Assembly: GCA_029265435.1 (NCBI GenBank)
Contig: JAJUJH010000012.1
Coordinates: 1-32,052 of the forward strand
From: Clostridiales bacterium
Lineage (GTDB): Bacteria > Bacillota > Clostridia > Christensenellales > SZUA-584
Direction: 5' to 3'
Length of the DNA stretch: 32,052 bases
Of this stretch, positions 8,589 to 28,360 are shown one piece after another (the stretch's first letter is position 1; every line of letters starts with the position of its first letter). The position numbers and the translations under genes were made by a program. The notes below the pieces were generated by a model. It did no database searches. It was given only the letters and a program-made list of their open reading frames with translations, and was not told the origin of the DNA.

Positions 8589-8612
8589 TCTCACCGTCTC
8601 CTTTTTCGTTTG

Positions 8613-8639
8613 TTAGCACTCACGCCTTCCGAGTGCTAA
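8613..8639. promoter_or_regulatory. CIRCE operator (HrcA-binding site)
   Basis: TTAGCACTC (8613-8621), nine spacer bases, then GAGTGCTAA (8631-8639) match the CIRCE consensus at all 18 arm positions. It lies just downstream of the htpG -10 and upstream of the ribosome site, so bound HrcA would block initiation or early elongation. As it is transcribed, it also forms a 9-bp stem in the mRNA leader. Confidence 0.97.
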
Positions 8640-8643
8640 ACGT

Positions 8644-8672
8644 ATTTTAGCACCATTTGTTTCCGAGTTCAA
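8644..8672 (-). promoter_or_regulatory. Sigma-A type promoter of htpG-thpR
   Basis: On the minus strand the -35 is TTGAAC (8667-8672), the spacer is 17 bp, and the -10 is TAAAAT (8644-8649). The predicted start falls at the upstream end of CIRCE, the classical layout of HrcA-controlled promoters. Confidence 0.8.
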
Positions 8673-8730
8673 CACCCGCGCATGATGAACCGGCCAAACC
8701 GAAATATGATTTCAATGGATATTGGCTTGC

Positions 8731-8768
8731 AAAAAATATCGGGAGCACCCGTGTGCCGGATGCTCCCG
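8731..8768 (-). terminator. Rho-independent terminator of the isomerase gene
   Basis: CGGGAGCA (8740-8747) pairs with TGCTCCCG (8761-8768) in a perfect 8-bp stem. On the minus strand a T-rich tail follows, with six T at 8731-8736. It lies about 30 bp after the isomerase stop and upstream of the htpG promoter. Confidence 0.85.
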
Positions 8769-8796
8769 TTTCAATTCTGATTTGTTCCCGTCTTTT

Positions 8797-13600: not shown

Positions 13601-13795
13601 AGAAAACAGCTCGGCCTTCAGATTTCCGACAGGATCGGCCTTCAGTTTACGGGAGGCTGTCCCGAAGAATGGGTGGATTACATCCTCAGCGAAACGCTGG
13701 GTGACATCTGCGAAATTTCAATCGCCGATGCGCAAATCGAGCTTGAGGATGAAAAAGGCGGCCCGGTCGTCGTCAAAATACAAAAGAAAGCCTGA
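10685..13795 (+). CDS. ileS: Isoleucyl-tRNA synthetase, eukaryote-like type 2
   Basis: The enzyme charges tRNA-Ile with isoleucine and has an editing domain. At 1036 residues, with no C-terminal zinc finger, it fits the eukaryote-like type 2 IleRS. Type 2 enzymes are generally less sensitive to mupirocin than type 1. The start is TTG at 10685, with GAGGTGG (10671-10677) 7 nt upstream. The class I signature is altered: GKPHHGT gives H55-H-G-T58 where HxGH is expected. The KMSKS loop is KLSKS at 599-603. The editing domain shows TTPWTLPSN and HIAPAFGEDD, and four Cys pairs (CFRC, CWRC, CEQC, CEC) mark the zinc-bearing insertions. The region around NWYIRRSRRRFW begins the anticodon-binding part. 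It is a single gene with its own promoter and terminator. Confidence 0.96.
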   Translation: MKRFNLSSSLDIPKLQDEVLEFWRENNIFEKSVQKNKKGEIVFYDGPPFPTGKPHHGTVLVSFIKDMIARYWTMQGYSVPRVWGWDCHGLPIETQAEAALGIKDKKEIESSVGVDKFNDQCFDIVSANNETWRKYVEKMARWVDYEGAYKTMNPDYMESVLWTFKQCYDKGLIYKDYRVTPYCFRCETSLSLSDTRESDSTRPRQDPWVIAKFATGQEMQGMPVYFLAWTTTPWTLPSNMALAVGADIGYAYAVVGSEVYIGCESLMSKYPKVFGDKPQIIARCKGEDLIGKKYTPLFSYFKEKEAEGAFRVIGAGFIDASEGIGIVHIAPAFGEDDYWVAKSSGVPLVNPVDHRGLFTDEVGDFAGRNVIEANQDIIRFLRARNQVIADGTIEHNYPHCWRCRQPLIYKAMEAWYLNIEMIKDRLIEVNNEINWVPESVKYGRFGNWLANARDWNISRNRYWSTPIPGWECEQCGKRRVLGSVQEIYEASGKRLTNLHKQYMDEVVLTCECGGTMKRIPEVIDCWFESAAVPYAQKHYPFENKDWFETHHPSDFVVEYTGQIRCWFYYLHVMSVALFDKPAFKNCVVHGTVLAKDGKKLSKSSKNYTDPMLLMDKYGTDAFRLYMYQSNAMLIGDLLFEESGILGALQQILLPFWNACSFFASYANIDGFSPDSAAEPESDNQLDRWILAKLYETEKAIADKMDRYQVNQYVGYIAALIDGLTNWYIRRSRRRFWGSDFSADKKSGYATLYYVLVNTCKLLAPVAPIIAEKLYKELTGETSVHLADWPDIPEKYKDERLLKELDTVQEIIHLARSIRSKSGINNRQPLTKLLVALSDSDEAADIEKYRQVIGEELNVKEVEFIDNVETIASVHYLPNLPALGPRYGKQLGPITKAIKEKQFQYENGGIKLTLPNGENVLLEQSDVIVNYQAKEGLHIMNGFGIVVSLDLTLTDALRREGLAREIVRKIQDSRKQLGLQISDRIGLQFTGGCPEEWVDYILSETLGDICEISIADAQIELEDEKGGPVVVKIQKKA

Positions 13796-13868: not shown

Positions 13869-13905
13869 CAAACAAAACAGCCCGCAGGCGCTGATCCCGC
13901 GGGCT
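13869..13905 (-). terminator. Rho-independent terminator of the sugar ABC transporter operon
   Basis: AGCCCGC (13879-13885) pairs with GCGGGCT (13899-13905) across a 13-nt loop. On the minus strand it is followed by TGTTTTGTTT. It starts about 17 bp after the last permease stop and faces the ileS terminator. Confidence 0.8.
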
Positions 13906-13921
13906 TGAATCGATATACGTA

Positions 13922-15049
13922 TTAAGACGGCAGATCGCTTTCGACTTTCCCGGCTTTGACTTTTATCTGTTCGGAAAGTTTCAGCTTGATGCCTCCCCTG
14001 TTCCGAATCTCTAGAATCACGCTCTGAATTATTATAAAGAAGCAAAGCATAAGACCGGTGGTAATGCTCTGCCAATACGGCTCTCTGAGCCCCGAAGCAA
14101 CCACGATATTGCTGATCGTCTTTAATGTCAGCACGCCGAAAAGCGTCCCGACGATATTGCCCACGCCGCCGGTCAGTAATGTACCGCCGATGATGGCGGA
14201 AGCAATCGCCTGCATTTCCGCGGTGGTGGCGTTGGAGGCGTTGCCCGCGCCGGTATGCAGCAGATAGACATAGCCGCCGATTCCTGATAACAAACCGCTC
14301 ACCAGATAGGCATAGAAGCTTGTACGCTTGACGTTAATGCCGAGCATCAGCGCGCTCTGCCTGTTTCCTCCCACCGCATAGAGATTGCGTCCGAACCGCG
14401 TCCATCTGAGCATTGCAAACACGGCGATTACGATCAAGATGGCGACCACCACGCCGATCTCGATTTTTGCGGGAATGAAATTACCGCTTTTACCGTAAGA
14501 GCCGATTCCCGGAATAATAATACGGGATTCCTTGAGGGCGACAAAGGCCTCGTGCGCCGCAGTGCGCGGAGTTGCGCTGACGATGGTCGTCATGCCTTTT
14601 GCAAAGAACATGCCCGCCAGTGTCACAATAAACGGCTGTATCTCCAAATAGGAAATCAACGTACCCTGAACCAATCCGAACGCTATCCCGATGCCCAATG
14701 CCAGGCCCACCGAACCAATGACGCTGCCGCCATGATCGTCAAGATAGACGACGCACGCCATTGTCACCAGCGCGGTGATGCCGCCCACCGAGATATCGAT
14801 GCCGCCCGCTATCATTACGAGCGTTACGCCGCATGCGATCACGATCAAGAACGAATTGTTATTGAAAATATCGAGAAATTGCTGAGGATTTAAGAAACCG
14901 CCGCCCCATATCAGCATGGCCAGCACATACATGCATATAAACGTGCATATCGTGATGGTCAGCAGCAGGTTCGTATTCGAAATCGGTTCCCTGCGTTTTT
15001 TGTCCCGCTTTTCGGCAACCAAACCATTATTACTTGTCATATCATTCAT
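13922..15049 (-). CDS. Sugar ABC transporter permease, YjfF-like
   Basis: This is an integral membrane permease of the ribose/galactofuranose type (BPD_transp_2), 375 residues with about 8-10 hydrophobic segments from residue 28 on. The conserved GGIDISVGGITALV near residue 82, and GNRQSALMLGINV and GGTLLTGGVGNIVGT later, are standard for RbsC/YjfF proteins. It is the last gene of the operon and overlaps the preceding permease gene by 8 nt, so the two are translationally coupled. The order binding protein, ATPase, permease, permease matches E. coli ytfQ-ytfR-ytfT-yjfF, the galactofuranose importer. The sugar here is not proven. The C-terminal tail (about 25 residues) is lysine-rich and cytosolic. 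Confidence 0.93.
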   Translation of the reverse strand: MNDMTSNNGLVAEKRDKKRREPISNTNLLLTITICTFICMYVLAMLIWGGGFLNPQQFLDIFNNNSFLIVIACGVTLVMIAGGIDISVGGITALVTMACVVYLDDHGGSVIGSVGLALGIGIAFGLVQGTLISYLEIQPFIVTLAGMFFAKGMTTIVSATPRTAAHEAFVALKESRIIIPGIGSYGKSGNFIPAKIEIGVVVAILIVIAVFAMLRWTRFGRNLYAVGGNRQSALMLGINVKRTSFYAYLVSGLLSGIGGYVYLLHTGAGNASNATTAEMQAIASAIIGGTLLTGGVGNIVGTLFGVLTLKTISNIVVASGLREPYWQSITTGLMLCFFIIIQSVILEIRNRGGIKLKLSEQIKVKAGKVESDLPS

Positions 15050-16103
15050 TCTCCGTCACTTTTGTCGGTCTTTTTACCAGTTTATCGCGCAGCATGAGGG
15101 CGTACTTCTTCACGACCGGCGAGCTGATGACAACAATGGCGATAATCACGATCGCTTTGTACGCTTTTACCGCCGTCGACGAAACCTTCATGGCGTAAAG
15201 CGTGATCGTCAGCGCCTGAATGATATATGCCCCTATTACCGAGCCGCTCAAGCTGAATTTTCCGCCGCCGAGCGAATTGCCTCCGATGGCAACCGCCAAG
15301 ATCGCATCCATTTCAATGTCCAAAAGCAGCGTCTCATGGTTGATAAGCCCTATTCGGCTCACGCCGATGCAGCCCGCTATCGCGACGCATACGCCCAGAA
15401 TCATAAACGACAGCAGCTTCATCCACGCGGTGTTGATACCGTTCAGGCGCGCGGATCTTTCATTGATGCCGACAGACTGCGTATACAACCCGAGGTTGGT
15501 GAACCTCAAAACGAGAGAAACCAGCAGCACGAATATGATGACGATGATGATCGGCGTGGGTATCGGTATGCCCGGAATAAAGCTGCCGATATTCCCGAGC
15601 AGCGGGCTTTCAACCGTCGGCGTCGCCCCGCCGTTGATCCAGTATGCGATGGGACGCCCGGCCGTAAACAATATCAATGTCGCAATCATCGGCTGTATTT
15701 TGAACGCGGCCACCAATGTGCCGTTGAACGCGCTGAATATGACCGCAACAACACAGCTTGCCAAAAAGGCGAGAAGCATGATGGGAACTGTCACCTCATT
15801 TGCCCTCAGCACGCTGACAAAAACGCTGCCGGCTATGGCCGCCACCGCGCCGACGCTGATATCCTGTCCTCTGGATGACGCCGTGACCAAAGTCATACCG
15901 ATCGATATAATGGCAAGCTCTGACGCGCCGTTTAATATACTGATCAAATTCCCCGAAAGAACGGTGTTCCCGTCGTTGTTGGTGGTAATGGATAACGAGA
16001 AAAACGAAGGATCCCGTATCAAGTTGAAGATGACCAGCAATAAAAGCGCAAATAACGGGAAAACCAATTGAGATCTCGCTAATTTTTTCAACCCCTTAAC
16101 CAT
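15042..16103 (-). CDS. Sugar ABC transporter permease, YtfT-like
   Basis: This is the first of two membrane permeases (353 residues, BPD_transp_2 family). The conserved motif SRGQDISVGAVAAIAGS is near residue 83, and the C-terminal half holds AIGGNSLGGGKFSLSGSVIGA. Two different permeases rather than one homodimer is the arrangement of the YtfQRT-YjfF group. The ATG at 16103 overlaps the ATPase stop by 8 nt, and its own stop overlaps the next gene by 8 nt, which favours equal production of the two subunits. Confidence 0.93.
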   Translation of the reverse strand: MVKGLKKLARSQLVFPLFALLLLVIFNLIRDPSFFSLSITTNNDGNTVLSGNLISILNGASELAIISIGMTLVTASSRGQDISVGAVAAIAGSVFVSVLRANEVTVPIMLLAFLASCVVAVIFSAFNGTLVAAFKIQPMIATLILFTAGRPIAYWINGGATPTVESPLLGNIGSFIPGIPIPTPIIIVIIFVLLVSLVLRFTNLGLYTQSVGINERSARLNGINTAWMKLLSFMILGVCVAIAGCIGVSRIGLINHETLLLDIEMDAILAVAIGGNSLGGGKFSLSGSVIGAYIIQALTITLYAMKVSSTAVKAYKAIVIIAIVVISSPVVKKYALMLRDKLVKRPTKVTENE

Positions 16104-17616
16104 TTTGGACAGCCTCCCCCGCGATTGTGTGCATGATATTGGCCTGAGTCATGTCTTCACCTTTCAGCTCGCCCACGATTTTGCGGTCGCGCATCACGAT
16201 CAGCCGTGAGCATGTACGAAGCATTTCTTCGATTTCGGATGAAATGAACGTGACGCTGACGCCTTCCTCGGCAAGTTTGAGCACAAGCTTTTGAATCTCC
16301 ACCTTTGTGCCCACGTCAATGCCGCGCGTCGGTTCGTCCAAAATCAGATATTTGGGATTTGTCAGCAGCCATCGCGCCAGTATGACTTTCTGCTGATTGC
16401 CGCCCGAAAGGGACTTGATGGGTGTGTCCGTCGAAGCGGTCTTGATCTCAAGCAGCTTGATATACTCGTCCGCAAAGGCCTCCGCCTCCGCTTTGGAGAA
16501 CGGCCTGAAAAAGCCCTTCAAAACCTGCAGCGCGAGTATGATATTATCACGAACGGATAATTCATCGATGATGCCGTCCTGTTTTCTGTCCTCCGGAAGA
16601 TACCCGATGCCTTGTCTCATCGCATCTATGGGTTTAGCTATCCTGACGTATTTCCCGTTCACTTTTGTCCTGCCGCCCGTCACCTTATCGGCGCCGAATA
16701 TTGCGCGGACGCTTTCGCTGCGGCCGGAACCGAGAAGCCCGGTAAACCCGTTGACTTCTCCCTTGTGAATCTTAAAATCAAACGCCCTTGTTCCCGCTGC
16801 GCTGGATAATCCATACGCCTCGAATACGGGCGTTTCCTCCTCTTTGACCTGTGAAACCTTTCTGTTTTCCAATGCCGAAATGTCGTCAAGCTCCTTGCCC
16901 ATCATTTTTGATATGAGCTGGACGCGCGGCAAGTCCTTAACCTCGTACTCCCCGACAAGCTCGCCGTTCCTTAAAACGGTGATCCTGTCGCATATCTCGT
17001 AAACCTGCTCAAGAAAATGGGTGATGAAGATGATGCCGACGCCGCGGGCTTTCAGTTCCCGCATCAGCGAGAAAAGCTTTTCAACCTCGTGTTCGTCCAG
17101 CGAGGATGTCGGCTCGTCGAGGATCAGCACCTTGCAGTCCATATCCACCGAACGGGCGATGGCCACCATCTGCTGAACGGCCAGCGAGCAGGTGGCAAGC
17201 TGCTGCGTGGCTCTCGCGGGGATATTCAGTTTCGCAAGAATCTCCGTCGTCTTTCTGACCATTGAGCGCCAGTTCACAAAGCTGTAATTGCCCCGCCCGA
17301 TAAACATATTTTCGGCAACCGTCAGGTTGGGGCAAAGCGTGATTTCCTGATAAACCGTGCTGATGCCTAAATTCTGCGCCTCCTGAGGCGATTTGACCGT
17401 GATGTCTTTGTCGATGCCCGCTATGTGGATCTGTCCTGAATCTTTCGGGTATACGCCTGTTAAAACTTTGACCAATGTCGATTTGCCGGCTCCATTCTCT
17501 CCCATCAGCGCATGAATTTCGCCTTTGCGAAGAGTAAAATCCACATTCTGCAAAGCACGGACTCCGGGAAATGCTTTGCTTATATTCCGCATGGATAAAA
17601 CGATGTCGTTTTGCAT
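16096..17616 (-). CDS. Sugar ABC transporter ATPase with two nucleotide-binding domains, YtfR/RbsA-like
   Basis: The protein powers sugar import. I start it at the ATG at 17616, with GGATGG 9 nt upstream, giving 506 residues as in RbsA/MglA/YtfR. Upstream in-frame codons to 17703 run through a stem-loop and lack a ribosome site. The first domain has Walker A GENGAGKST at 39-47 and Walker B VLILDEPTSSLD, with a degenerate signature (LAVQQ). The second has a degenerate Walker A (GLLGSGRSES) but an intact LSGGNQQ signature and LILDEPTRGID. This asymmetry is normal for the family. It lies 129 nt after the binding-protein gene, with a strong hairpin between, and overlaps the first permease by 8 nt. 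Confidence 0.95.
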   Translation of the reverse strand: MQNDIVLSMRNISKAFPGVRALQNVDFTLRKGEIHALMGENGAGKSTLVKVLTGVYPKDSGQIHIAGIDKDITVKSPQEAQNLGISTVYQEITLCPNLTVAENMFIGRGNYSFVNWRSMVRKTTEILAKLNIPARATQQLATCSLAVQQMVAIARSVDMDCKVLILDEPTSSLDEHEVEKLFSLMRELKARGVGIIFITHFLEQVYEICDRITVLRNGELVGEYEVKDLPRVQLISKMMGKELDDISALENRKVSQVKEEETPVFEAYGLSSAAGTRAFDFKIHKGEVNGFTGLLGSGRSESVRAIFGADKVTGGRTKVNGKYVRIAKPIDAMRQGIGYLPEDRKQDGIIDELSVRDNIILALQVLKGFFRPFSKAEAEAFADEYIKLLEIKTASTDTPIKSLSGGNQQKVILARWLLTNPKYLILDEPTRGIDVGTKVEIQKLVLKLAEEGVSVTFISSEIEEMLRTCSRLIVMRDRKIVGELKGEDMTQANIMHTIAGEAVQNG

Positions 17617-17665
17617 AGGTACCAACCATCCTTTAAGCGTCGGAAGTTTCGCAAAGACGGCGGCG

Positions 17666-17692
17666 GGTGTATGGGGAATGTCCCCATACACC
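17666..17692 (-). promoter_or_regulatory. Intercistronic stem-loop between binding protein and ATPase genes
   Basis: GGTGTATGGGG (17666-17676) pairs perfectly with CCCCATACACC (17682-17692) around a 5-nt loop. No U run follows, so it should not terminate fully. In other sugar transport operons such hairpins protect the upstream binding-protein mRNA from 3' decay and let it exceed the membrane components. That role is inferred here. Confidence 0.75.
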
Positions 17693-17745
17693 GTACCGCA
17701 CACTCATACGAAATCCCTGTTATGAGGGTGTTTTAAGCCGACCGA

Positions 17746-18789
17746 TTATTCGCCGAGACCAAATGTGTCTATGTCAGCCTGGGTGATCGTCGTCGCGTCG
17801 AAACCGCGCTCTTCAGAAATAACCTTCTTCTGTGTCAGCTTCTCGCCGGCTTCAAGCTTCTTGATCATCTCGTCGATAACGGAAGCCTGGAAGGGGCTGC
17901 ACTGACCGTCGTAGTTCCAATTGCCCGCAAGCAGCTCTCTTAAAGCCCACTTGTTGCAGTCAAAGCCCATGATGATGACGTCTTTGCCAACGCCGTGGGT
18001 AATGCCAGCTTCGTCAAGCGCCGCAACAGCGCCCTTCGCCATGCCGTCGTTTTCAGCATAAATCACGTTGAATTTCTCTTTGGAGTTGATGACGGATTCC
18101 ACGATTTTCTTGGCTTCAGCTTCGTCCCAGTTTGCGGTCTGCTGAACGACTTTTTTCATCGTGCCGGCAGCAAATTCCGCATCCAGCGCGCCCGTGCGGC
18201 CGATCTGGGCATCACAGCCCATAACGCCCTGAATGTGGACCACGTTATATTCGGGAAGCTTCTGCGCTTTGAGCCAGTCCACAGCCGTCTTGCCTTCCTG
18301 CGCCATATCCGACACAACGGCAGCCTCATACAGGCTCTCGTCCGCGTTCAGCATACGGTCGAAAAGGAACACCTTGACGCCGGCTTCCTGCGCGCTCTTC
18401 AAAACGGTCTCCCAGCCGTCCGTCGCGGCGGCGGAGAGAAGCAGATAGTCCACACCGTCTGTGATGAACTGCGAAGCCGCACTCAGTTGCTCGTCGTTCT
18501 TCAGGCTGTAGAATGTCTGGACATCGTATCCGTTCTCTTTCGTGAAGACTTTTTCAAAGTCCGCCACGTTCGCGGCGCGATAACCGGATTCAGCCGGAGG
18601 ATTGTTGATGATGCCGACCTTGATCAGCCCGCCGTCAGCTTCCGCTGAAGGAGCTTCGGACGATTCGGACGGAGCCTCCGACGGAGCCACGGACGGCGCC
18701 TCCGAGGACTGTGACGCAGCGGGCGCGGCGCACGCCATCATGCCGAATGCCATCGCAACAACTAAGAGAACAACCAACAGTTTTTTCAT
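17746..18789 (-). CDS. Sugar-binding lipoprotein of the ABC transporter, YtfQ-like
   Basis: This is the extracellular solute-binding protein that delivers sugar to the permeases. It has 347 residues, with a lipoprotein signal ending GMMAC (Cys20) and then a Ser/Glu/Ala/Pro-rich linker to about residue 53. The rest is a type I periplasmic-binding fold (Peripla_BP_4). Conserved points shared with YtfQ and with the second binding protein at 19124 are AESGYR (Arg71), FDR, AQIGR, ENDG and FD in the hinge/ligand region. It is first in the operon, with a good ribosome site (AAGGAAATTGAAGG region) and a promoter at 18849-18877. The stem-loop behind it suggests higher expression than the other subunits. 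Confidence 0.94.
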   Translation of the reverse strand: MKKLLVVLLVVAMAFGMMACAAPAASQSSEAPSVAPSEAPSESSEAPSAEADGGLIKVGIINNPPAESGYRAANVADFEKVFTKENGYDVQTFYSLKNDEQLSAASQFITDGVDYLLLSAAATDGWETVLKSAQEAGVKVFLFDRMLNADESLYEAAVVSDMAQEGKTAVDWLKAQKLPEYNVVHIQGVMGCDAQIGRTGALDAEFAAGTMKKVVQQTANWDEAEAKKIVESVINSKEKFNVIYAENDGMAKGAVAALDEAGITHGVGKDVIIMGFDCNKWALRELLAGNWNYDGQCSPFQASVIDEMIKKLEAGEKLTQKKVISEERGFDATTITQADIDTFGLGE

Positions 18790-18877: not shown

Positions 18878-19094
18878 CGTTCCAAGGCAAAGCAAGTAAA
18901 AATTCAAACCATCTCGGTTAGAATGCGAACCGCCGCCGTTCAAGCCGGAGCAGCGCCGTTATGTGCTGAAAATTTTCTACCGTTAACAATAAAAAACAAA
19001 CAACAGGCGCTTTGAACCAGAGTATATTCTGTTATCCAATCAACATTTGTCCCTGTGCTTTAAAGTCTTGTATATATCGTATATGTGACAATTT

Positions 19095-19123: not shown

Positions 19124-20119
19124 TTAATATGGCCTGCTGTCGATCATTTTCTGTGTAATGGTAAAGCAGTCGAACTGGGTTTCATCGATGTATTTTTCTC
19201 TTTCCACCTTCTCTCCCCTTTCGAGCTTTTGAATGATATCGTGCACATAAGGGCCCTGAAGCGGATTGCATTCGACCGAAAGCGCAATCTTTCCCGCAAG
19301 GCAGTATTCGAGCCCCAGCCTTGTCGCGTCAAATGAAATCACGATGACGCCGTCCTCCGCATTGCATTTCAGCCCGGCTTTTTCCATCGCGTCGATCGCG
19401 CCGAGCGCTTCGCCGTCGTTCTCGCAGTATACCACATCAATATCCTTTGTCTTCTCGAGAATAGCCTCCATGACTTCCAAAGCCTTGGCTCTCGTGAAAT
19501 CGCCGCATTGCCGCTCAATGATATGCCAGTTGGCGTTGCGCACCACTCCTTCATCCAAAGCGGCCGTCCGCCCGATCTGGGCGGAGGATTCCATCGTCCC
19601 CTGTATGTGGACAATATTGATGGTATCGTTCGTTCTCCCCTGCTTTTGCAGCAGGCTTTCAAGCCATGCAACGGCTTTCTCGCCCTCTTGCCGGAAGTTG
19701 GAGCCGATATATGCCGTATACAGTCCCTCATCCTCCGCTTCGATATACCTGTCTGTCACGATCACCGGTATGCCGGCATCCTTCGCTTCTTTGAGGATCG
19801 AATTCCAGCCCGTCTCAACCTTCGGGGAAAACACGATGTAGTCGACGTCCTGCTGAATAAAAGTGCGTATCGCTTTGATCTGGTTTTCCTGCTTCTGCTG
19901 TGCGTCGTTGAAAATCAGCTCGTATCCGTTTTTTTCGCTGAATGTGGCCTTCATGTTCTCGGTATTGGCCACGCGCCATTCCGATTCGGCGCCGACCTGA
20001 GAAAAACCGACCAGAATCAGGTTCTCTTCGGAAACGTCCGAAGCAGGCTTTTCAGCGCTCAAACAGCCCGAAAGCATGAGCATCGCACATACGGCCGCCG
20101 CACACACCGATTTTTTCAT
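19124..20119 (-). CDS. Second sugar-binding lipoprotein, likely sensory partner of the histidine kinase
   Basis: The protein has 331 residues, with a lipoprotein signal ending LSGC (Cys19). The mature part is clearly YtfQ-like: VGFSQVGAESEWR near 37-49 (Arg49), then QQKQENQIKAIRTF, TGWNSILKEAKDAGIP, SGDFTRAK-like CGDFTRAK, ENDG and SFDATR. Its ATG at 20119 overlaps the kinase stop by 4 nt (ATGA), so it is produced with the kinase and regulator rather than with the transporter. In known three-component systems a binding protein presents the sugar to the extracellular domain of a LytS/YesM-like kinase. I infer the same here. It could also serve as an alternative binding protein for the transporter. 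Confidence 0.92.
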   Translation of the reverse strand: MKKSVCAAAVCAMLMLSGCLSAEKPASDVSEENLILVGFSQVGAESEWRVANTENMKATFSEKNGYELIFNDAQQKQENQIKAIRTFIQQDVDYIVFSPKVETGWNSILKEAKDAGIPVIVTDRYIEAEDEGLYTAYIGSNFRQEGEKAVAWLESLLQKQGRTNDTINIVHIQGTMESSAQIGRTAALDEGVVRNANWHIIERQCGDFTRAKALEVMEAILEKTKDIDVVYCENDGEALGAIDAMEKAGLKCNAEDGVIVISFDATRLGLEYCLAGKIALSVECNPLQGPYVHDIIQKLERGEKVEREKYIDETQFDCFTITQKMIDSRPY

Positions 20120-21558
20120 TGTTTCATCTCCTCATCCATGAATTGTATGGGAATCGTGACGATGACTCTGGTGCCCGCATCCGGCTTGCTTTCGATGGCT
20201 AATCCGTACTGCGTGCCAAAGAGAATCTGAATCCGTTGATGCACCGTTCTCAGCCCGAAGCCGCCGCTTTTGTCGTCCGCGAGCGACGCCCTTATCTCGT
20301 TAAGCCGATCCTCTGTCATGCCGGACCCGTCGTCCGTCACTTCCAACACAACGCATTCATTCCGCAGCCTTCCGGTCACGCGGATGAAGCCTTTGCGCCG
20401 CGAGACCTTGATACCGTGATACAGCGCGTTTTCAACGATCGGCTGCAGGGTGAGTTTCGGCAATATGCATTTTTTGATATCGTCCGAAATATCGATTTCA
20501 TACTCCATCAAATCCCTGTAGCGCATCTGCTGAATCTCAAGGTAGCTGCGGATATGCTTTTCTTCCTCCGCAAGCGTAATCACGTTCTGCCCGCGGCTCA
20601 GCGAAAAACGAAAGAAATTGGACAGGCTGTCCACCATCGTGAGCGCGGAGTTGATTTCTCCGGATTCGATCAGCCATATGATTGTATCGAGCGTGTTGTA
20701 GAGAAAATGCGGATTGATCTGAGCCTGAAGCAGCGCCAGCTCGGTGCTGCGCTTTTGTTTCTCCTGTTCGGCGTTTTTCTCGATCTGCCTCTTCAAACGG
20801 CCCACCATGCTTTCAATGCCATCCGAAAGGAGCTGCACCTCCTCCACCTCGGCCTGAATCGGTTCACAGACAAGCAGGCTGCCTTTGCCGATCGCTTCAA
20901 GGCGCTGGCAAATTTCGTCGATCGGGTCCACAACCCTGTGGCTCAGCCTTCTCGAGTAGTTCAAAAGGAAGTACAGCAGCACCAGCGCGGCCGCCAGAGC
21001 GGCAACCATCAAAATGATCATGTTTTCAATCATGGCCGTCTGCAGAGCGTTCAAATGCACCGCTTCGTAATAAAGGTAGGTATACATGTATTGCTGAATC
21101 AGCTCTGTATCGACGTAAATATTCTGATCAAGCTGAGTCTGGCGGGAGTCGTACTCTTCCGTCTGCTCGATCTGCAGCATCTTTTCCTCAAGATTCTTGC
21201 ACAGATTGAGCACGCTGTTGATGGCGCGAAGGCTGTCCTTTTCCGTCGTCGTTTCAATCAGCTTTAAGGCGATGTTTTCGGCGGACTGTACCTCCTCAAG
21301 CGGAAGCCCCACCGAATACTGGCTGTCTATCACATAATAATACATCTTCAGATCCACGTCGGGCTTGAAGTCCTGGTTGAAATCCGAAGCCACCGTCACA
21401 TTATTCAGTATCGCGCGATACTGAAACGCATACACAACCCCGATCGTCGCAATAACAACAATCACAATCATCAGCGGCAGCGCCACGATGAGCACCATCT
21501 TCCAGAGCTTTTTGTGCATCGTGATCTTGCCGGTTCTCGTATCCTGCCTAAGTTTCAC
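20116..21558 (-). CDS. Sensor histidine kinase, YesM/LytS type
   Basis: This is a membrane sensor kinase of 480 residues. The N-terminal transmembrane helix is at about 21-43. An extracellular domain of about 135 residues is mostly helical by composition and has no recognisable ligand-binding fold. The second helix is at about 180-200. A HAMP-like segment follows, then a His_kinase domain with the phospho-acceptor His284 in NPHFLYNTLD. The ATPase domain shows LQPIVENALYHGI and VTDDGSGM. GTG at 21558 is the start, with AAGGAAG 6 nt upstream; its GTGA overlaps the regulator stop. A second ATG 13 codons in is less likely. The absence of a sugar-binding fold in the extracellular part fits sensing through the binding protein encoded next. 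Confidence 0.95.
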   Translation of the reverse strand: MKLRQDTRTGKITMHKKLWKMVLIVALPLMIVIVVIATIGVVYAFQYRAILNNVTVASDFNQDFKPDVDLKMYYYVIDSQYSVGLPLEEVQSAENIALKLIETTTEKDSLRAINSVLNLCKNLEEKMLQIEQTEEYDSRQTQLDQNIYVDTELIQQYMYTYLYYEAVHLNALQTAMIENMIILMVAALAAALVLLYFLLNYSRRLSHRVVDPIDEICQRLEAIGKGSLLVCEPIQAEVEEVQLLSDGIESMVGRLKRQIEKNAEQEKQKRSTELALLQAQINPHFLYNTLDTIIWLIESGEINSALTMVDSLSNFFRFSLSRGQNVITLAEEEKHIRSYLEIQQMRYRDLMEYEIDISDDIKKCILPKLTLQPIVENALYHGIKVSRRKGFIRVTGRLRNECVVLEVTDDGSGMTEDRLNEIRASLADDKSGGFGLRTVHQRIQILFGTQYGLAIESKPDAGTRVIVTIPIQFMDEEMKQ

Positions 21559-23171
21559 AGTTTGCTTCCTTTGCGGTATTCACTGGGCGTGCAGCCCGAA
21601 ACCTTTTTAAACACAAAGCTGAAATAGTGCGGGTCCTTATATCCCACGGAAAACGCGATTTCACTGGAGCGCTTGTCCGTTTGGCGGAGCATGCGCTTTG
21701 CCTCGTTGATCCGCTTGTTCGTCAGGTATTCGACAAACGTCTGCCCCACTTCCTGGCTGAACATCGCCGAAAAGTAATTGGGGCTGATATTCACTTTTCT
21801 GGCCACGCGGTCAAGCGAAATGGCTTCTTCGGAATAATGGCTGTCAATAAAAGCGATCGCCTGAGACAGAAGCTGGCGCTGCTGCTTTTTGCTTTCGCTG
21901 TCGCGCAGCCTTATGGCCTGCGTCATGATCTGCCGCGCAAACTGCCGCGCTTCCTCCGGCGATGACGCGCTGTCGGTCGGGCGAAGCTCGGTCGACCAAT
22001 AGCTGTCCGCACGGCAGCCGATCGAATTCAGATACGCGTCCGACGCATAATAAACCGTCAGCGTCAGATACCGGCAGAACAGCGGCATGGAAACCGCCTC
22101 TTCCCCGGCGCTTTGAAACAGCTGATCGATGAAACGGTCAATTTCTTCCGCCGCGCCGCCGCTTAAGAAATTACGGATGCACTCCTGATTGATATCCGCT
22201 TTGCACGTATCGCTTTTTGTCCCGCCCGTTTTCTGCAAATGCCTGATGCAGTCTTCCGAAAGGATATGCTCTTCGGGACACAGGTAACGATAAGACAATA
22301 TGCGGCTGGCTTCCGTCGCGCAGGCCGGAATGGCGCTGAGACGCGATACCGGCGAGCCGCACGCGATATGCCAGCTGACGTCACGCCCCGCCTCGGCGCA
22401 GCGCCTTTGGATATTGTCGATACATTCGCGCGTTTTGCTTTCAATGCTGTCCTCGCCGCCTTTTACCAGAACGGAATAGGTGGTCACATTCCAGTTGAAC
22501 AGAATCATATCCGAACGGCTTTCGATGAATTGCCGGATTGTATCCTGCAGCGCCTCAAGCGCGTCCGTATAGCTTTCGGGCGTGCTGCCATCGTATCCGG
22601 CACTGCTAAGCGAAAAAAGCACAATATTATAAAAAGGAGCGTTCACATCAATGCCGAGCGTCTTTGCGGTCTCGCAGATTTCCGACACGCTCAGCCCGCC
22701 CGTCACCAGCTGTTCAAAAAACCGCCTTCGCGAGAACACTTCGTACTCGCGGGCTTCACGCTGAAACTGCGCAAGATACTCCTGCTGCCGCCGTTCTTCT
22801 TCCATTTTTTTGTGCAGCTCGATCAGCAGCTCCACCATCTTCTCCTTCATAATGGGCTTCAAAAGATAGCGGTCAACCCCAAGGCGGATCGCCTGCTGCG
22901 CATAGGAAAAGTCGTCATAACCGCTGATGATGACGATTTTCGCTCTCGGCAGCTCCCTGCGCACGAGCTCGATCAGTGAAAGCCCGTCCATAAAAGGCAT
23001 TTTGATATCGGTGATGAGCAAATCGGGCTGTATCTGGCGGATCAGCGGAAGTGCAAGCTCGCCGTCCGGCGCATCGCCGGTATACTGAAAGCCATACTGC
23101 TCCCAAAGGATATTATTGCGTATGCCTTCGCGTACAACGATCTCGTCTTCGACAAGAAAGACCTTATACAT
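21555..23171 (-). CDS. Response regulator with AraC-type DNA-binding domain, YesN type
   Basis: This is a transcription regulator of 538 residues. The receiver domain spans 1-120, with the acidic pocket at the N-terminus, phospho-acceptor Asp55 in ITDIKMP, and the conserved Lys in LLKPI. A long middle region of about 300 residues has no recognised motif. The C-terminal 100 residues are a double helix-turn-helix AraC domain (ISPNYFSAMFSQEVGQTF, IAFSVGYKDPHYFSFVFKK). It is first in the operon, with AAAGGAAG ahead of the ATG and a promoter at 23244-23272, and overlaps the kinase gene by 4 nt. The obvious target is the adjacent transporter promoter. Autoregulation and an effect on the divergent rnf promoter are possible. 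Confidence 0.95.
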   Translation of the reverse strand: MYKVFLVEDEIVVREGIRNNILWEQYGFQYTGDAPDGELALPLIRQIQPDLLITDIKMPFMDGLSLIELVRRELPRAKIVIISGYDDFSYAQQAIRLGVDRYLLKPIMKEKMVELLIELHKKMEEERRQQEYLAQFQREAREYEVFSRRRFFEQLVTGGLSVSEICETAKTLGIDVNAPFYNIVLFSLSSAGYDGSTPESYTDALEALQDTIRQFIESRSDMILFNWNVTTYSVLVKGGEDSIESKTRECIDNIQRRCAEAGRDVSWHIACGSPVSRLSAIPACATEASRILSYRYLCPEEHILSEDCIRHLQKTGGTKSDTCKADINQECIRNFLSGGAAEEIDRFIDQLFQSAGEEAVSMPLFCRYLTLTVYYASDAYLNSIGCRADSYWSTELRPTDSASSPEEARQFARQIMTQAIRLRDSESKKQQRQLLSQAIAFIDSHYSEEAISLDRVARKVNISPNYFSAMFSQEVGQTFVEYLTNKRINEAKRMLRQTDKRSSEIAFSVGYKDPHYFSFVFKKVSGCTPSEYRKGSKL

Positions 23172-23272: not shown

Positions 23273-23399
23273 TAGACCATTTTACGAAAATTGTTGATTA
23301 TTCTATTAGAAAAAAAGAAAGCGTCAGTGTTTTTTCCATATATATTCAGTTTCAAAAATCAAAGAATTTCAGTAATTCATATATTTCGGCGGTGTATTG

Positions 23400-23408
23400 T
23401 GCTATAAT
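23400..23408 (+). promoter_or_regulatory. Extended -10 promoter of the rnf operon
   Basis: TGCTATAAT is a perfect extended -10 (TG at 23400-23401, TATAAT at 23403-23408). No good -35 lies 17 bp upstream, as is usual for extended -10 promoters. The leader to the rnfC ATG is about 33 nt. Confidence 0.6.
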
Positions 23409-23447
23409 ACGGTTTTGGAAAGAAATCAACAGATCGAAGGAGACCGT

Positions 23448-24776
23448 ATGGCCAGCAAACTGACATTTAAAGGCGGTATCCATCCTCTGCGCGGCATCCA
23501 TCACGGCAAGCCTCTGTCGGAAAAACGGCCGATTGAAGCATGCAGTGTGCCCGAGGAGGTTGTACTGCCGCTCTCACAGCATATAGGCGCGCCCTCCGTC
23601 CCCGTCGTGAAGGCGGGCGACAGGGTGGATCTGGGCCAGATGATTGCGGATGCAGGCGGATATGTGAGCGTCCCCTGTTTTTCAAGCGTTTCGGGAACGG
23701 TCAAGGCCATTGAGCCCCGCCCGCATATTTCGGGACGCCCCATGTTGTCCGTGGTTATACAGAACGATTTTGAGGACAGGCTGTATCCGGGCATCAAAAG
23801 CGCGGGCAGCCTTGAAAGCCTTTCTCCAAAACAGATTGTCGATATCATCAAAAGCGCGGGCATCGTGGGCATGGGCGGCGCCGCCTTCCCGACGCACGTC
23901 AAGCTTTCGCCGCCGCCCGAAAAGAAGATCGATACGGTTATCGTCAACGGGGCGGAATGCGAGCCGTACCTGACCGCCGACCACCGTCTTTTGCTCGAGC
24001 ATCCCGACGAGATCGTTCACGGCCTTGAAGCGGTGATGAAGGCGCTCGGCGTTGGGGAAGCGTGCATCGCCGTCGAAGAAAACAAGCCCGATGCGATTGC
24101 CGCAGTCTCCAAAGCGGCACAGGGCAAGAATATCCGCGTGCTGACGCTGCGCGTCAAGTATCCGCAGGGCGCCGAAAAGCAGCTCATTTATGCGGTCACG
24201 AAGCGGCAGGTACCGTCCGGCGGGCTGCCGATGGATGTGGGCGCGGTGGTCGTTAACGCGGGAACCGCCTATCAGATCGACCAGGCGGTCAGCAAAGGGC
24301 TGCCGCTTTATCAGCGCGTGGTGACCGTCACAGGCTGCGTCAACAATCCCTCCAACCTGATGGTGCGCCTCGGTACGCCGCTGTCGCATGTGATCGCTTA
24401 CGCGGGCGGTTTTTCCGGCCGCATCGAAAAGCTGATCGCAGGCGGCCCGATGATGGGCATCACGCAGTATAACCTCGATGCGCCCGTCATGAAAGGAACG
24501 TCGGGCATACTCGCTCTCGACGCAAAAACGGCGAGAAGCGCGCAAGCGTCGGCCTGCATCCGCTGCGGCAAATGCATCGCCGTCTGCCCGATGGGGCTGC
24601 AGCCGTATCTTTTGAGCGACTATGCCGAAAACGAGCGGTTTGAGGACGCGGAAAAAGCGCATGCGCTCGACTGCATCGAATGCGGAAGCTGTGCGTATGT
24701 CTGTCCGGCAAATCGTCATCTCGTGCAGGAAATCCGGCTGGCCAAATCGCAGATCATGCAAAAACGCAAGAAATAA
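23448..24776 (+). CDS. rnfC: Rnf complex subunit RnfC
   Basis: This peripheral subunit of the Rnf complex contributes to electron transfer between ferredoxin and NAD+. The start is the ATG at 23448, with AAGGAG 6 nt upstream; an ATG at 23397 lies at the promoter and is excluded. It has 442 residues. The N-terminal region starts TFKGGIHP, typical of RnfC. The NADH/FMN-binding SLBB region shows GMGGAAFPTHVKL and NGAECEPYLTADHRLL. Two 4Fe-4S motifs are complete: Cys370, 373, 376, 380 and Cys409, 412, 415, 419. It lacks the long C-terminal extension of the enterobacterial protein. It is the first gene of rnfCDGEAB, the clostridial order. Confidence 0.97.
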   Translation: MASKLTFKGGIHPLRGIHHGKPLSEKRPIEACSVPEEVVLPLSQHIGAPSVPVVKAGDRVDLGQMIADAGGYVSVPCFSSVSGTVKAIEPRPHISGRPMLSVVIQNDFEDRLYPGIKSAGSLESLSPKQIVDIIKSAGIVGMGGAAFPTHVKLSPPPEKKIDTVIVNGAECEPYLTADHRLLLEHPDEIVHGLEAVMKALGVGEACIAVEENKPDAIAAVSKAAQGKNIRVLTLRVKYPQGAEKQLIYAVTKRQVPSGGLPMDVGAVVVNAGTAYQIDQAVSKGLPLYQRVVTVTGCVNNPSNLMVRLGTPLSHVIAYAGGFSGRIEKLIAGGPMMGITQYNLDAPVMKGTSGILALDAKTARSAQASACIRCGKCIAVCPMGLQPYLLSDYAENERFEDAEKAHALDCIECGSCAYVCPANRHLVQEIRLAKSQIMQKRKK

Positions 24777-24801
24777 CCTTAGCATCTTCAGGGAGGTTTG
24801 A

Positions 24802-25737
24802 ATGGACCAGTATATCATGTCCTCGTCGCCCCATGTGCGTTCCAGGGAAACCACGGCACGCATCATGCGCGACGTGATCATCGCGCTGCTGCCCGCAACG
24901 GCATTCGGCGTCTATATTTTCGGCTTGAACGCGCTTTGGACGGTCATTGCGGGCACCGCGTCCGCCGTGCTTGCGGAAGCGGCAATACAGCTTTTAATGC
25001 ACAAGAAGGTCACCGTGAGAGACGGAAGCGCCGCCGTGACGGGTCTGCTGCTCGCTCTCAATCTGCCCCCGTCCGTTCCGATCTTTATACCCGTCATCGG
25101 TTCCGTTTTCGCCATCACAATCGTCAAGCAGGCGTTCGGCGGGCTTGGGCACAACTTCATCAATCCCGCGCTCGCGGCGCGCGCGTTCCTGCTCGCGTCG
25201 TGGCCGTCGCTGATGACCGCATGGATCATTCCCGGCGCGGACGCGGTTTCGTCCGCCACACCTCTCGGCGCGCTCAAAATGGGTGAGCCGCTCGCGCGCT
25301 ATTCGGATATGTTTTTCGGAACTGTCGGCGGCTGCATCGGTGAAACAAGCGCATTGGCGCTCATCATCGGCGGCCTTTACCTGATCGCGCGGCGCGTCAT
25401 CGATCCGCGGATTCCGGTCGTTTACATCGGAACGGTCGCTCTGTTCACGTGGATTGCCGGTCCGTCCGGCCTGTTCACGGGAGACGCGCTTTACCACATA
25501 CTCGGCGGCGGTCTGATGCTCGGCGCGTTCTTCATGGCGACGGATTACACCACGTCTCCGATGAGCGGCGCAGGCAAAGCTTTATTCGCGGCGGGCTGCG
25601 GCGTTTTAACCAGCGTCATCCGCCTGTGGGGCGGCTATCCGGAGGGCGTATCCTATTCGATACTGCTGATGAACCTTACCGTGCCGCTTATCGACAAAGC
25701 CTTCGTTCCCCGGCGGTTTGGAGGTGCGGTGAAATGA
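24802..25737 (+). CDS. rnfD: Rnf complex membrane subunit RnfD (covalent FMN)
   Basis: This is a membrane flavoprotein subunit of the ion-translocating ferredoxin:NAD+ oxidoreductase, 311 residues with many hydrophobic helices. The covalent FMN attachment site is visible as SSATPLGA, with Thr153. GGGAGG precedes the ATG at 24802. It starts 25 bp after rnfC and overlaps rnfG by 4 nt. The RPHHxN-type loop GLGHNFINPALAARAFL near 115-130 is characteristic of RnfD/NqrB. Confidence 0.96.
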   Translation: MDQYIMSSSPHVRSRETTARIMRDVIIALLPATAFGVYIFGLNALWTVIAGTASAVLAEAAIQLLMHKKVTVRDGSAAVTGLLLALNLPPSVPIFIPVIGSVFAITIVKQAFGGLGHNFINPALAARAFLLASWPSLMTAWIIPGADAVSSATPLGALKMGEPLARYSDMFFGTVGGCIGETSALALIIGGLYLIARRVIDPRIPVVYIGTVALFTWIAGPSGLFTGDALYHILGGGLMLGAFFMATDYTTSPMSGAGKALFAAGCGVLTSVIRLWGGYPEGVSYSILLMNLTVPLIDKAFVPRRFGGAVK

Positions 25738-26309
25738 AAAGGATCATCGTGATTGCTCTCAAGCTCGTCGTCATCACTGTAATCGCGGGGCTGGCGCTCG
25801 GCGTCGTCAACAGCATCACCAAAGAGCCCATCGCGCAGCAGGAAATGAAAAAAGCCACCGAGGCGCGAAAGGCCGTATTCCCCGAAGCGGCGGACTTTCA
25901 GAAGATGGATATCGGCATCCCCGAAGAATACGCCATCATCAAAGAGGTTTATACGGCGCTTGACGGAGAAGGCAATGCGATCGGCATTACGGCGGCGGTC
26001 GTGACAAAAGGATACAGCTCCGGTCTCAACCTGACTGTCGGCGTCGGCGCAGACGGAACCATCAAGGGTGTAAATATCGGCAGCAACAACGAATCGCCCG
26101 GTTTCGGCTCAAAGGCGCCCGAGGAGCTTGCGCCGCAGTTCAGCGAGGGCCGGCCGTACGACGAGCCGTTTGTCGTGGTGAAAGGCTCCGCCGCCGGCGA
26201 TAATGAAATACAGGCCATCTCCGGCGCAACGATTACGTCCAAAGGCATCGTCAGCGCCGTCAATACGGTGGTCGAGTTCTATAAGCAGACAGCGGGAGGC
26301 GCGCAATGA
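25734..26309 (+). CDS. rnfG: Rnf complex subunit RnfG (covalent FMN)
   Basis: This is a membrane-anchored flavoprotein subunit of 191 residues. One N-terminal transmembrane helix (about 5-25) precedes an extracytoplasmic FMN-binding domain. The attachment motif SGATITS is at 163-169, with flavinylated Thr168. The GSNNESPGFGSK segment is standard for RnfG/NqrC. The ATG at 25734 overlaps the rnfD stop (ATGA), with GGAGG shortly upstream inside rnfD. It overlaps rnfE by 4 nt. A flavin transferase (ApbE) is needed to load FMN and is not encoded in this window. Confidence 0.96.
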   Translation: MKRIIVIALKLVVITVIAGLALGVVNSITKEPIAQQEMKKATEARKAVFPEAADFQKMDIGIPEEYAIIKEVYTALDGEGNAIGITAAVVTKGYSSGLNLTVGVGADGTIKGVNIGSNNESPGFGSKAPEELAPQFSEGRPYDEPFVVVKGSAAGDNEIQAISGATITSKGIVSAVNTVVEFYKQTAGGAQ

Positions 26310-26926
26310 AGAACAAAGTGAAGCCAATGGCCGTACTCAAAAACGGCATGTTCACCGAAAATCCGACATTCCGGCTTGTGCTGGGCATGTGCCCCACGCT
26401 TGCCGTCACAACGGCCGCGTTCAACGCGATCGGCATGGGACTGGCCGCCACATTCGTGCTCGTCGGCTCCAACGCGGTAATCTCCTTGCTGCGCAATTTT
26501 ATACCGTCCAAGGTACGCATTCCCGCATACGTTGTCATCATCGCGGCGTTTGTGACGATCGTGCAGATGCTTCTCAAGGCGTTTGTTCCCGCGCTCAACG
26601 AATCGCTGGGCCTGTTTATACCGCTCATCGTCGTCAACTGCATCATACTCGCGAGAGCCGAAGCGTATGCGTCCAAAAACGGCGTGTTCGCCTCGCTTCT
26701 GGACGGCGTCGGCATCGGTCTTGGGTTTACGGGCGCAATGCTCATCATATCCACCATCCGCGAGGTCGTCGGCAAGGGTCAGTTTTTCGGCATGAGCCTT
26801 TTCGGAGACGGCTTTCAGGGCATGGCGATACTCGGGCTCGCACCGGGTGGTTTCATCACATTGGGTCTGGTGCTGGGGCTTATCAACTTCATCGGTCTTA
26901 AAAGAAAAAAGAAGGGGGCGCAATAG
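26306..26926 (+). CDS. rnfE: Rnf complex membrane subunit RnfE
   Basis: This is an integral membrane subunit of 206 residues with six predicted helices. The opening ENPTFRLVLGMCPTLAVTT carries the conserved Cys of the RnfE/NqrD family, which with the matching Cys in RnfA holds an intramembrane iron-sulfur centre. It is translationally coupled to rnfG by a 4-nt overlap and is followed after 3 nt by rnfA. The C-terminus is lysine-rich. Confidence 0.96.
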   Translation: MKNKVKPMAVLKNGMFTENPTFRLVLGMCPTLAVTTAAFNAIGMGLAATFVLVGSNAVISLLRNFIPSKVRIPAYVVIIAAFVTIVQMLLKAFVPALNESLGLFIPLIVVNCIILARAEAYASKNGVFASLLDGVGIGLGFTGAMLIISTIREVVGKGQFFGMSLFGDGFQGMAILGLAPGGFITLGLVLGLINFIGLKRKKKGAQ

Positions 26927-26929
26927 CGA

Positions 26930-27514
26930 ATGGACGGTTTTTCAGGCATACTGCTGATATTATTAAGCTCGATTCTCGTCAACAACTTCATCCTTTCGAG
27001 GTTCCTTGGCATCTGCCCGTTCCTCGGCGTCTCCAAGAAGGTGGAAACGGCGCTCGGCATGGGCTTCGCGGTTACGTTCGTGATGGCGCTCGCGTCGGTG
27101 ATTACGTATCTCGTCCAATATTATATCCTTGTGCCTCTCGGGATAGAATATCTTCAGACGATCGCGTTCATACTCGTGATCGCGGCGCTGGTGCAGCTTG
27201 TGGAAATGGCGCTTCAGAAGATGGTGCCGGCGCTGTATAAGGCGCTCGGCGTGTATCTGCCGCTGATCACCACAAACTGCGCGGTGCTCGGGGTCGCGAT
27301 ACTCAACATCAACGAGCATTACAACCTGCTGCAGACGCTTGTCAACGGTATCGGCGGCGCGCTCGGCTTTACGCTCGCCATCGTGCTCTTTGCGGGCATC
27401 CGAGAGCGGCTGGAGCTTTCGAACATCCCCGAGCCTTTGAAGGGCTTCCCCATCGCGCTCATTTCCGCGGGCCTGATGGCAATCGCTTTTCTCGGTTTTT
27501 CCGGGCTCGTTTAA
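26930..27514 (+). CDS. rnfA: Rnf complex membrane subunit RnfA
   Basis: This is an integral membrane subunit of 194 residues, paralogous to RnfE and inserted in the opposite orientation. The motif [23 protein letters not shown] carries the conserved Cys, and [11 protein letters not shown] the second one. It starts 3 nt after the rnfE stop, with a G-rich ribosome site about 12 nt upstream. Confidence 0.96.
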
Positions 27515-27529
27515 CGGAGGTCAACAACT

Positions 27530-28360
27530 ATGCTGAACGAAATCATCTGGCCCGTCGCCGCGCTTGGCGGCCTCGGCCTGCTTCTGGGGCTCGGGCTGGC
27601 CATAGCGTCTAAGGTGTTCGCGGTGCAGACAGACGAAAATATCGAAAAAGTCCGCGAGCTTCTTCCGGGCGCCAACTGCGGCGGATGCGGCTTTCCGGGC
27701 TGCGACGGTCTCGCCAAGGCGCTTTGCGCGGGCGAAGCCAACGTCAGCCAGTGCAGCGCGCTTTCGTGCGAAAATCTGAACGCCATTGCAGCTCTGCTGG
27801 GCATGGACGCCGCGCCCGCCGAGAAGATGGTGGCGCGCGTGCTGTGCCGCGGCGACAGTGAAAACTGCGTATCGCAATATACCTACTCGGGCATTTCCGA
27901 CTGCCGCGCGGCGGCCATGGTGGCGGGCGGCCCCAAGTCGTGCGCGTTTGGATGCGTCGGACTTTTGACCTGCGCCAAGGTATGTCCCTTCGGCGCGATT
28001 TACCTGAGCGATAAAGGCATTGCGGCTGTCGACGAAAGCATATGCACCGGCTGCGGGCAATGTGTGAAGGCCTGTCCCAAAAACGTGATCAAGGTGATGC
28101 CGCAAAGCCACAGTGTGTTCGTGACATGCCGCACCACCGAAAAAGGCAAGGCGGTCACGGCCAACTGCAAGGCGGGCTGCATCGCTTGCGGGCTGTGCGC
28201 CAAAAAATGCCCCGAGGGCGCGATCGAAATCAAAGACAATCTGCCCGTGATTGACTACGAAAAATGCACCGGCTGCGGCACATGCGCCGAGGTCTGCCCC
28301 AAGGGAAGCATCGCGTATATGCACAAAATCGAAAACAGCTGCAAGGTGTCAAACGGCTGA
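27530..28360 (+). CDS. rnfB: Rnf complex ferredoxin-type subunit RnfB
   Basis: This is the electron-entry subunit that receives electrons from reduced ferredoxin. Residues 1-27 are a membrane anchor. The next domain has the RnfB cluster motif at Cys50, Cys53, Cys58 and Cys75. After it come ferredoxin-like clusters: LTCAKVCP, CTGCGQCVKACP, CIACGLCAKKCP and CTGCGTCAEVCP. At 276 residues it is longer than enterobacterial RsxB, as in Clostridia. GGAGG precedes the ATG at 27530. It is the last rnf gene; maf starts 1 nt after its stop. Confidence 0.96.
   Translation: MLNEIIWPVAALGGLGLLLGLGLAIASKVFAVQTDENIEKVRELLPGANCGGCGFPGCDGLAKALCAGEANVSQCSALSCENLNAIAALLGMDAAPAEKMVARVLCRGDSENCVSQYTYSGISDCRAAAMVAGGPKSCAFGCVGLLTCAKVCPFGAIYLSDKGIAAVDESICTGCGQCVKACPKNVIKVMPQSHSVFVTCRTTEKGKAVTANCKAGCIACGLCAKKCPEGAIEIKDNLPVIDYEKCTGCGTCAEVCPKGSIAYMHKIENSCKVSNG

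Follow-up and report, generated by a model that had tools for sequence, protein, structure and literature searches.

A candidate three-component sugar sensor with a YtfQ-class binding lipoprotein beside a YtfQRT-YjfF-like transporter operon in a Clostridiales draft genome

The window, which is the whole analysed stretch of 32,052 nucleotides (G000:C157:1-32052), belongs to a draft genome of 2.59 Mb and encodes a YesN-type regulator, a YesM-type kinase, a binding lipoprotein and a sugar transporter (Table 1). An earlier note on this DNA had described the first three genes as coupled through 4-nt overlaps at both junctions, and the gene coordinates confirm this: the regulator and kinase genes share GTGA (21555-21558) and the kinase and lipoprotein genes share ATGA (20116-20119). 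One operon therefore holds a binding protein (SBP) gene together with a kinase and its cognate regulator. The regulator combines Response_reg, GGDEF_2 and AraC HTH domains, and thus has the receiver and AraC-type HTH of a YesN-type protein; its phospho-acceptor D55 is present in ITDIKMP. The kinase matches His_kinase (PF06580) with 92.2 bits and HATPase_c with 46.6 bits, both above the cut-offs, and its phospho-acceptor H280 is present in QINPHF. The YtfQRT-YjfF-like operon that the note had placed downstream in the same direction is indeed there; the transporter is complete and comes with a second binding protein of its own. The gene for this protein, SBP2, follows the sensor lipoprotein gene on the same strand after a spacer of 334 nt and directly precedes ytfR, so that a separate SBP is present for the neighbouring transporter. 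The family alignment of the YtfR-like ATPase starts at residue 35, and its true start probably lies downstream of its GTG. Counts from the promoter and terminator scanner were near the shuffled means and were therefore not taken as evidence.

Table 1. Positions of the genes and predicted features of the sensor and transporter region in the window.
Feature	Position	Strand	Description
YesN-type response regulator	21555..23171	-	538 aa; receiver (D55), GGDEF-like middle domain, AraC-type HTH
YesM-type histidine kinase	20116..21558	-	480 aa; H280; two TM helices
Kinase ectodomain, residues 37-184	21007..21450	-	predicted four-helix bundle; conserved among related-locus kinases; no Pfam family
Sensor lipoprotein, YtfQ/GafA-class, dedicated sensor clade	19124..20119	-	331 aa; domain, family and tree evidence
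Predicted operator block AB	18965..19002	-	two half-sites ~22 bp apart; models from relatives
Predicted operator block CD	18893..18932	-	two half-sites 21 bp apart; models from relatives
SBP2, the transporter's own binding lipoprotein, diverged YtfQ relative	17746..18789	-	domain and family models
YtfR-like ATPase	16096..17703	-	domain and family models
YtfT-like permease	15042..16103	-	domain and family models
YjfF-like permease	13922..15049	-	domain and family models
Terminator-like stem-loop, 3' of transporter operon	13879..13905	-	pattern match only

The flanks of the region hold other functions. An Rnf-type electron transport operon (23397-28360, plus strand) is directly divergent from the regulator gene. 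At 10685-13795 (plus strand) an IleRS with a DUF5915 tail is encoded, and since its scores of 710-727 bits against the MupA/MupB models are far under the 1900 cut-offs, it was not called resistant. The gene at 8797-10284 (minus strand), beyond ileS, encodes an L-fucose isomerase C-terminal domain (PF02952), and its product could belong to the sugar use of the region.

The sensor lipoprotein has a Peripla_BP_4 domain and the lipobox MLMLSGC. Among curated families it matches YtfQ (NF041827, an equivalog) best, with 233.1 bits, below the cut-off of 510. SBP2, which is also lipoprotein-like, reaches 128.5 bits against the same model and has diverged further within this family. Since both proteins stay below the 510-bit equivalog cut-off, we treat them as YtfQ relatives and not as YtfQ. 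The pocket residues W37, R38 and D111 (E. coli YtfQ precursor numbering) named for GafA/YtfQ (PMC10191376) are conserved in the sensor lipoprotein, which keeps the furanose-pocket motifs ESEWR, TDR and DFTR. SBP2 has ESGYR, FDR and NWDE; W37 is replaced by Y, F191 by W and R193 by E. Our reading of the pocket takes W37 as the upper Trp and also assigns the Phe below the sugar ring. With the furanose pocket kept in the lipoprotein and changed at several positions in SBP2, the two proteins may prefer different sugars or different forms of a sugar.

The transmembrane helices of the kinase lie at residues 21-39 and 181-199 and leave about 141 residues between them. Identity of this ectodomain to other kinases of these loci is mostly 20-77% in Clostridia and 11-14% in Spirochaetes. 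A profile search against PDB sequences and Pfam gave chance helical matches only. The structure model (pLDDT 93.9) predicts a four-helix bundle, which supports the earlier statement that the extracellular part has no sugar-binding fold. Foldseek matched the model to MCP2201, Adeh_2942, Tar and LytSN of XylFII-LytSN, all of them four-helix-bundle receptor domains (for LytSN, 5xsj_L, TM 0.75 by target length and rmsd 2.7), with no match at E<=0.001, and four-helix bundles are common among folds, which limits the weight of these matches. The missing sugar fold had also been given as the reason why the lipoprotein is a natural ligand-presenting partner. This argument is insufficient alone, because small ligands are bound directly by other receptors with a four-helix bundle, among them Tar and MCP2201; the predicted fold is compatible with partner binding but also with direct ligand binding. 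The kinase could therefore bind the sugar itself through its bundle, with the lipoprotein only sharpening the response. The top fold matches are such directly binding bundles, and the two-component pair of the CuaDSR system alone still responds to cellobiose (PMC10384115). However, the CuaS ectodomain on its own did not bind any tested sugar (PMC10384115) and LytS binds XylFII through the same kind of bundle, and we consider direct binding quite unlikely.

A search for relatives of the lipoprotein yielded 80 named loci, and most of the Clostridia loci found have the order regulator-kinase-SBP-transporter. The conserved linkage of SBP, YesM and YesN genes to YtfQRT-YjfF-like operons in Clostridia, for which the earlier note had suggested a search, was found: regulator, kinase and lipoprotein genes together with a transporter recur in at least 12 loci of several Clostridia families, which argues against chance. 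The linkage is conserved but not limited to dedicated sensors: most loci have one YtfQ-class SBP, which is encoded downstream of a kinase of this type and is the only one of the transporter. The spacing of the genes separates the two kinds of loci. In all 29 one-SBP loci the sole SBP, which presumably serves the transporter, lies 120-351 nt after the kinase, whereas the kinase-SBP gap is -11 to +30 nt in 10 of the 12 two-SBP loci. L010 becomes an eleventh two-SBP locus with a kinase-abutting SBP once its frameshifted kinase is read through, and the exception is L018 with a gap of 111 nt. Since loci within a clade are not phylogenetically independent, the Fisher value of 6e-8 for this difference overstates the case. 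In the tree, the lipoproteins coupled to a kinase group in a single clade (UFBoot 100, SH-aLRT 98), and the transporter SBPs of the two-SBP loci come from several lineages. This suggests that the dedicated sensor lipoprotein apparently arose once and was then retained, so the coupling rule does not reflect many independent events.

Locus L009 has kept the sensor trio beside a transporter and transporter SBP of another lineage. Its regulator, kinase and lipoprotein are 72, 73 and 71% identical to those of the window, as in other orthologs, whereas SBP2 (36%), YtfR (65%), YtfT (48%) and YjfF (43%) fall below the 67-86% of other orthologs. Evolutionary distances in two-SBP loci correlate at 0.92 between lipoprotein and kinase domain, at 0.85 between transporter SBP and YtfR and at 0.53 between lipoprotein and YtfR; in one-SBP loci the lipoprotein correlates at 0.71 with YtfR and at 0.14 with the ectodomain, which amounts to a double dissociation. 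Co-variation of ectodomain and lipoprotein beyond that of the kinase domain and shared history was not detected in nine two-SBP loci (partial correlation 0.00). Together, the gaps, the clade, L009 and the correlations support a lipoprotein that is inherited and evolves in company with the kinase and not with the transporter. These data also bear on whether the lipoprotein is a second substrate donor that is co-transcribed with the kinase by chance, while the kinase senses something else. Several binding proteins can serve a single transporter, the pocket motif of the lipoprotein is intact and, in one-SBP loci, the transporter has no binding protein other than the ortholog, all of which would suit a donor. 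Still, such a donor would not be expected to stay with the kinase where the transporter differs, as in L009, or to co-vary more with the kinase than with YtfR, and its gene lies upstream of the predicted operators, not behind them. We therefore regard this explanation as unlikely and favour a sensory role.

The three-component system is patchily distributed. A close ortholog (74%) was found in one same-order genome (G048) among 60 relatives, and none in the two same-genus and two same-family genomes sampled. In a same-genus genome (G001), locus L120 (397-7282) has the order SBP-kinase-regulator-SBP-YtfR with a 4-nt overlap of SBP and kinase (6278-6281), and this sister species would then have the same design in a different arrangement.

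Both predicted operator blocks, AB and CD, lie in the spacer upstream of SBP2, and their tandem repeats are conserved in the clade of the window. In the spacers of the 29 one-SBP loci, 21-bp direct repeats are strongly enriched (z 11.5); among 25 less redundant loci z is 8.4, with all other lags from 14 to 45 at or below 2.4. A period of 21 bp is the spacing of tandem AraC half-sites (araI1-araI2). In a scan of 1.09 Mb of this genome, models built from relatives only, with the window left out, ranked AB and CD first (29.6 vs 18.8 and 35.1 vs 15.2), though AT-rich intergenic DNA somewhat favours matches to such models. A half-site-pair model, also trained without the window, placed the window sites first (30.1) and fourth (26.2) and the araB promoter third (27.6), with background from 21.5. 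Since one of the top four matches, at L205 7840-7879 (28.7), lies between convergent genes and is a probable false positive, the araB site is not proof of control. The blocks AB and CD were placed by eye before modelling, and held-out loci are therefore the fairest test. In the held-out genome L119, where blastn at 1e-20 finds no similarity to the training loci, the CD model scored 40.5 bits in the same spacer and the next match 5.8. The scan covered 12 two-SBP loci, of which six were never in training (L018, L026, L031, L046, L050 and L060), and in all 12 the best match was upstream of the transporter SBP. From these patterns the tandem-repeat sites are predicted to be operators of the YesN-type regulator. 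Upstream of the regulator gene itself, matches in the window were only 10-12 bits and autoregulation is not claimed; the corresponding regions of L119 (21.5) and L010 (16.9) match more strongly.

Arabinose genes were not found adjacent to the sensor and transporter genes in the window. Elsewhere in this genome, contig C162 carries an araBAD-like operon (FGGY kinase-araA-araD) with a predicted operator about 70 nt upstream of the likely start codon (L153 12339-12378; G000:C162:25339-25378). Among the relatives, araA lies beside L011 and L012, and araD with an FGGY kinase beside L046; the third best site of L011 is upstream of araA. Regulators of the GntR/LacI type are found beside L010, L011, L031 and L046. 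The predicted site before araBAD and the relatives beside araA or araD make L-arabinose the leading and likely ligand. Given its furanose-type pocket, the lipoprotein might read L-arabinofuranose, which is short-lived and freshly released from plant polymers, while SBP2 takes another form or sugar, an idea that is possible but rather doubtful. If true, the cell would register ongoing polymer breakdown and not the bulk of the arabinose, and separate proteins for sensing and uptake would have arisen from one shared transporter SBP. The araBAD-like operon is itself part of a second three-component-like locus in the same genome (L153 2171-16233), with the order ABC sugar importer, SBP, YesM kinase, YesN regulator, another SBP and FGGY kinase-araA-araD. 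There the first SBP gene (6919-7911) overlaps the kinase gene (7908-9449) by 4 nt, and the locus looks like the AraPST-araEGH type.

We propose as the probable function of the locus a three-component sugar sensor, in which the lipoprotein presents sugar to the kinase and the regulator induces the transporter operon. The lipoprotein, anchored outside the membrane, would bind the sugar and present it to the YesM-type kinase at its four-helix-bundle ectodomain; L-arabinose is the most likely sugar, perhaps in the furanose form. The kinase would then phosphorylate the YesN-type regulator, which would bind the two tandem-repeat operators (period 21-22 bp) in the spacer and induce the transporter operon, with uptake proceeding through SBP2. 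Further probable targets of the regulator are the araBAD promoter elsewhere in the genome and, in relatives, the promoter of the regulator gene itself. We infer both the contact of lipoprotein and kinase and activation as the direction of the response, and nothing in the sequence sets the sign of control. An unliganded (or liganded) lipoprotein could instead hold the kinase off, so that sugar releases rather than activates the complex. Ligand-dissociated complexes of SBPs and sensors have been reported, as cited in PMC10384115, but for the sugar systems closest to this one induction of the transporter is described, which makes the opposite sign highly improbable.

The three-component design itself is known from a few bacteria (AraPST, XylFII-LytS-YesN and CuaDSR). 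AraPST of Geobacillus stearothermophilus functions with arabinose, the same likely sugar as here, while its partner transporter is of the ChvE/AraEGH type and not YtfQRT-YjfF-like. The gene order regulator-kinase-SBP also differs from AraPST. As in the window, AraPST has a second sugar SBP with YesM and YesN beside an importer with its own SBP, and a Parageobacillus PF13407 SBP-YesM-YesN locus is grouped with it as the closest precedent (PMC13068155, PMC4194401); the two-SBP design is stated in PMC10384115. In all three systems, sensing and uptake are the tasks of two different SBPs (PMC10384115, PMC13068155). Of the precedents that had been put forward earlier, XylFII-LytS is a good one, with the LytS domain among the fold matches, but the closest, AraPST and CuaDSR, had not been named (PMC10384115, PMC13068155). 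In XylFII-LytS-YesN of Clostridium beijerinckii an SBP, a kinase and a regulator likewise control an importer with its own SBP; however, it senses xylose with an XylF-class SBP, and its ectodomain has no detectable sequence relation to that described here. CuaDSR of Ruminiclostridium cellulolyticum shares with our locus a sensing lipoprotein SBP and a separate uptake SBP, a class-I kinase with HAMP, a 538-aa YesN/AraC regulator and a transporter operon downstream of the sensor operon (PMC10384115). Unlike our locus, it is a cellobiose system with a family-1 SBP and the corresponding transporter, and its kinase ectodomain has about 265 aa compared to about 141 aa. The mechanism proposed here is a prediction from these close precedents.

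The transporter and both SBPs of the window belong to the family of the GafABCD and YtfQRT-YjfF furanose importers, for which, in contrast to the locus here, no kinase partner or sensing role is described. In agreement with the claim that a YtfQ-class protein in such a role is little described, we found no sensing YtfQ/GafA protein in the open-access literature. New points are a sensor protein of the YtfQ class, a predicted operator with a predicted regulon, and the series of one-SBP and two-SBP loci. The YtfQ/GafA class thereby joins the binding proteins that appear to act as co-sensors of kinases, and the predicted regulon, operator and ligand are testable. Since the SBP follows the transporter in one-SBP loci and the kinase in two-SBP loci, the series opens a way to study by experiment how dedicated sensory binding proteins arose.

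Other arrangements were seen among the related loci. Five Spirochaetes loci (L032, L043, L044, L047 and L055) have SBP-first triads of a YtfQ-like SBP, a kinase and a regulator beside complete YtfQRT-YjfF-like operons, and their triad SBPs form a clade of their own. Ten Paenibacillus/Cohnella loci (L064-L068, L071-L073, L076 and L077) have a divergent kinase-regulator pair with a much longer ectodomain of about 268 aa; in these loci yjfF is followed by a second SBP gene. In L018, L031, L046 and L050 a GntR-LacI chimeric regulator of AraR-like architecture is encoded between sensor SBP and transporter SBP. Lastly, L119 has, between the genes for its sensor lipoprotein and its transporter SBP, an open reading frame (6909-7712) that resembles, as judged by eye, an amino-acid-type periplasmic binding protein.
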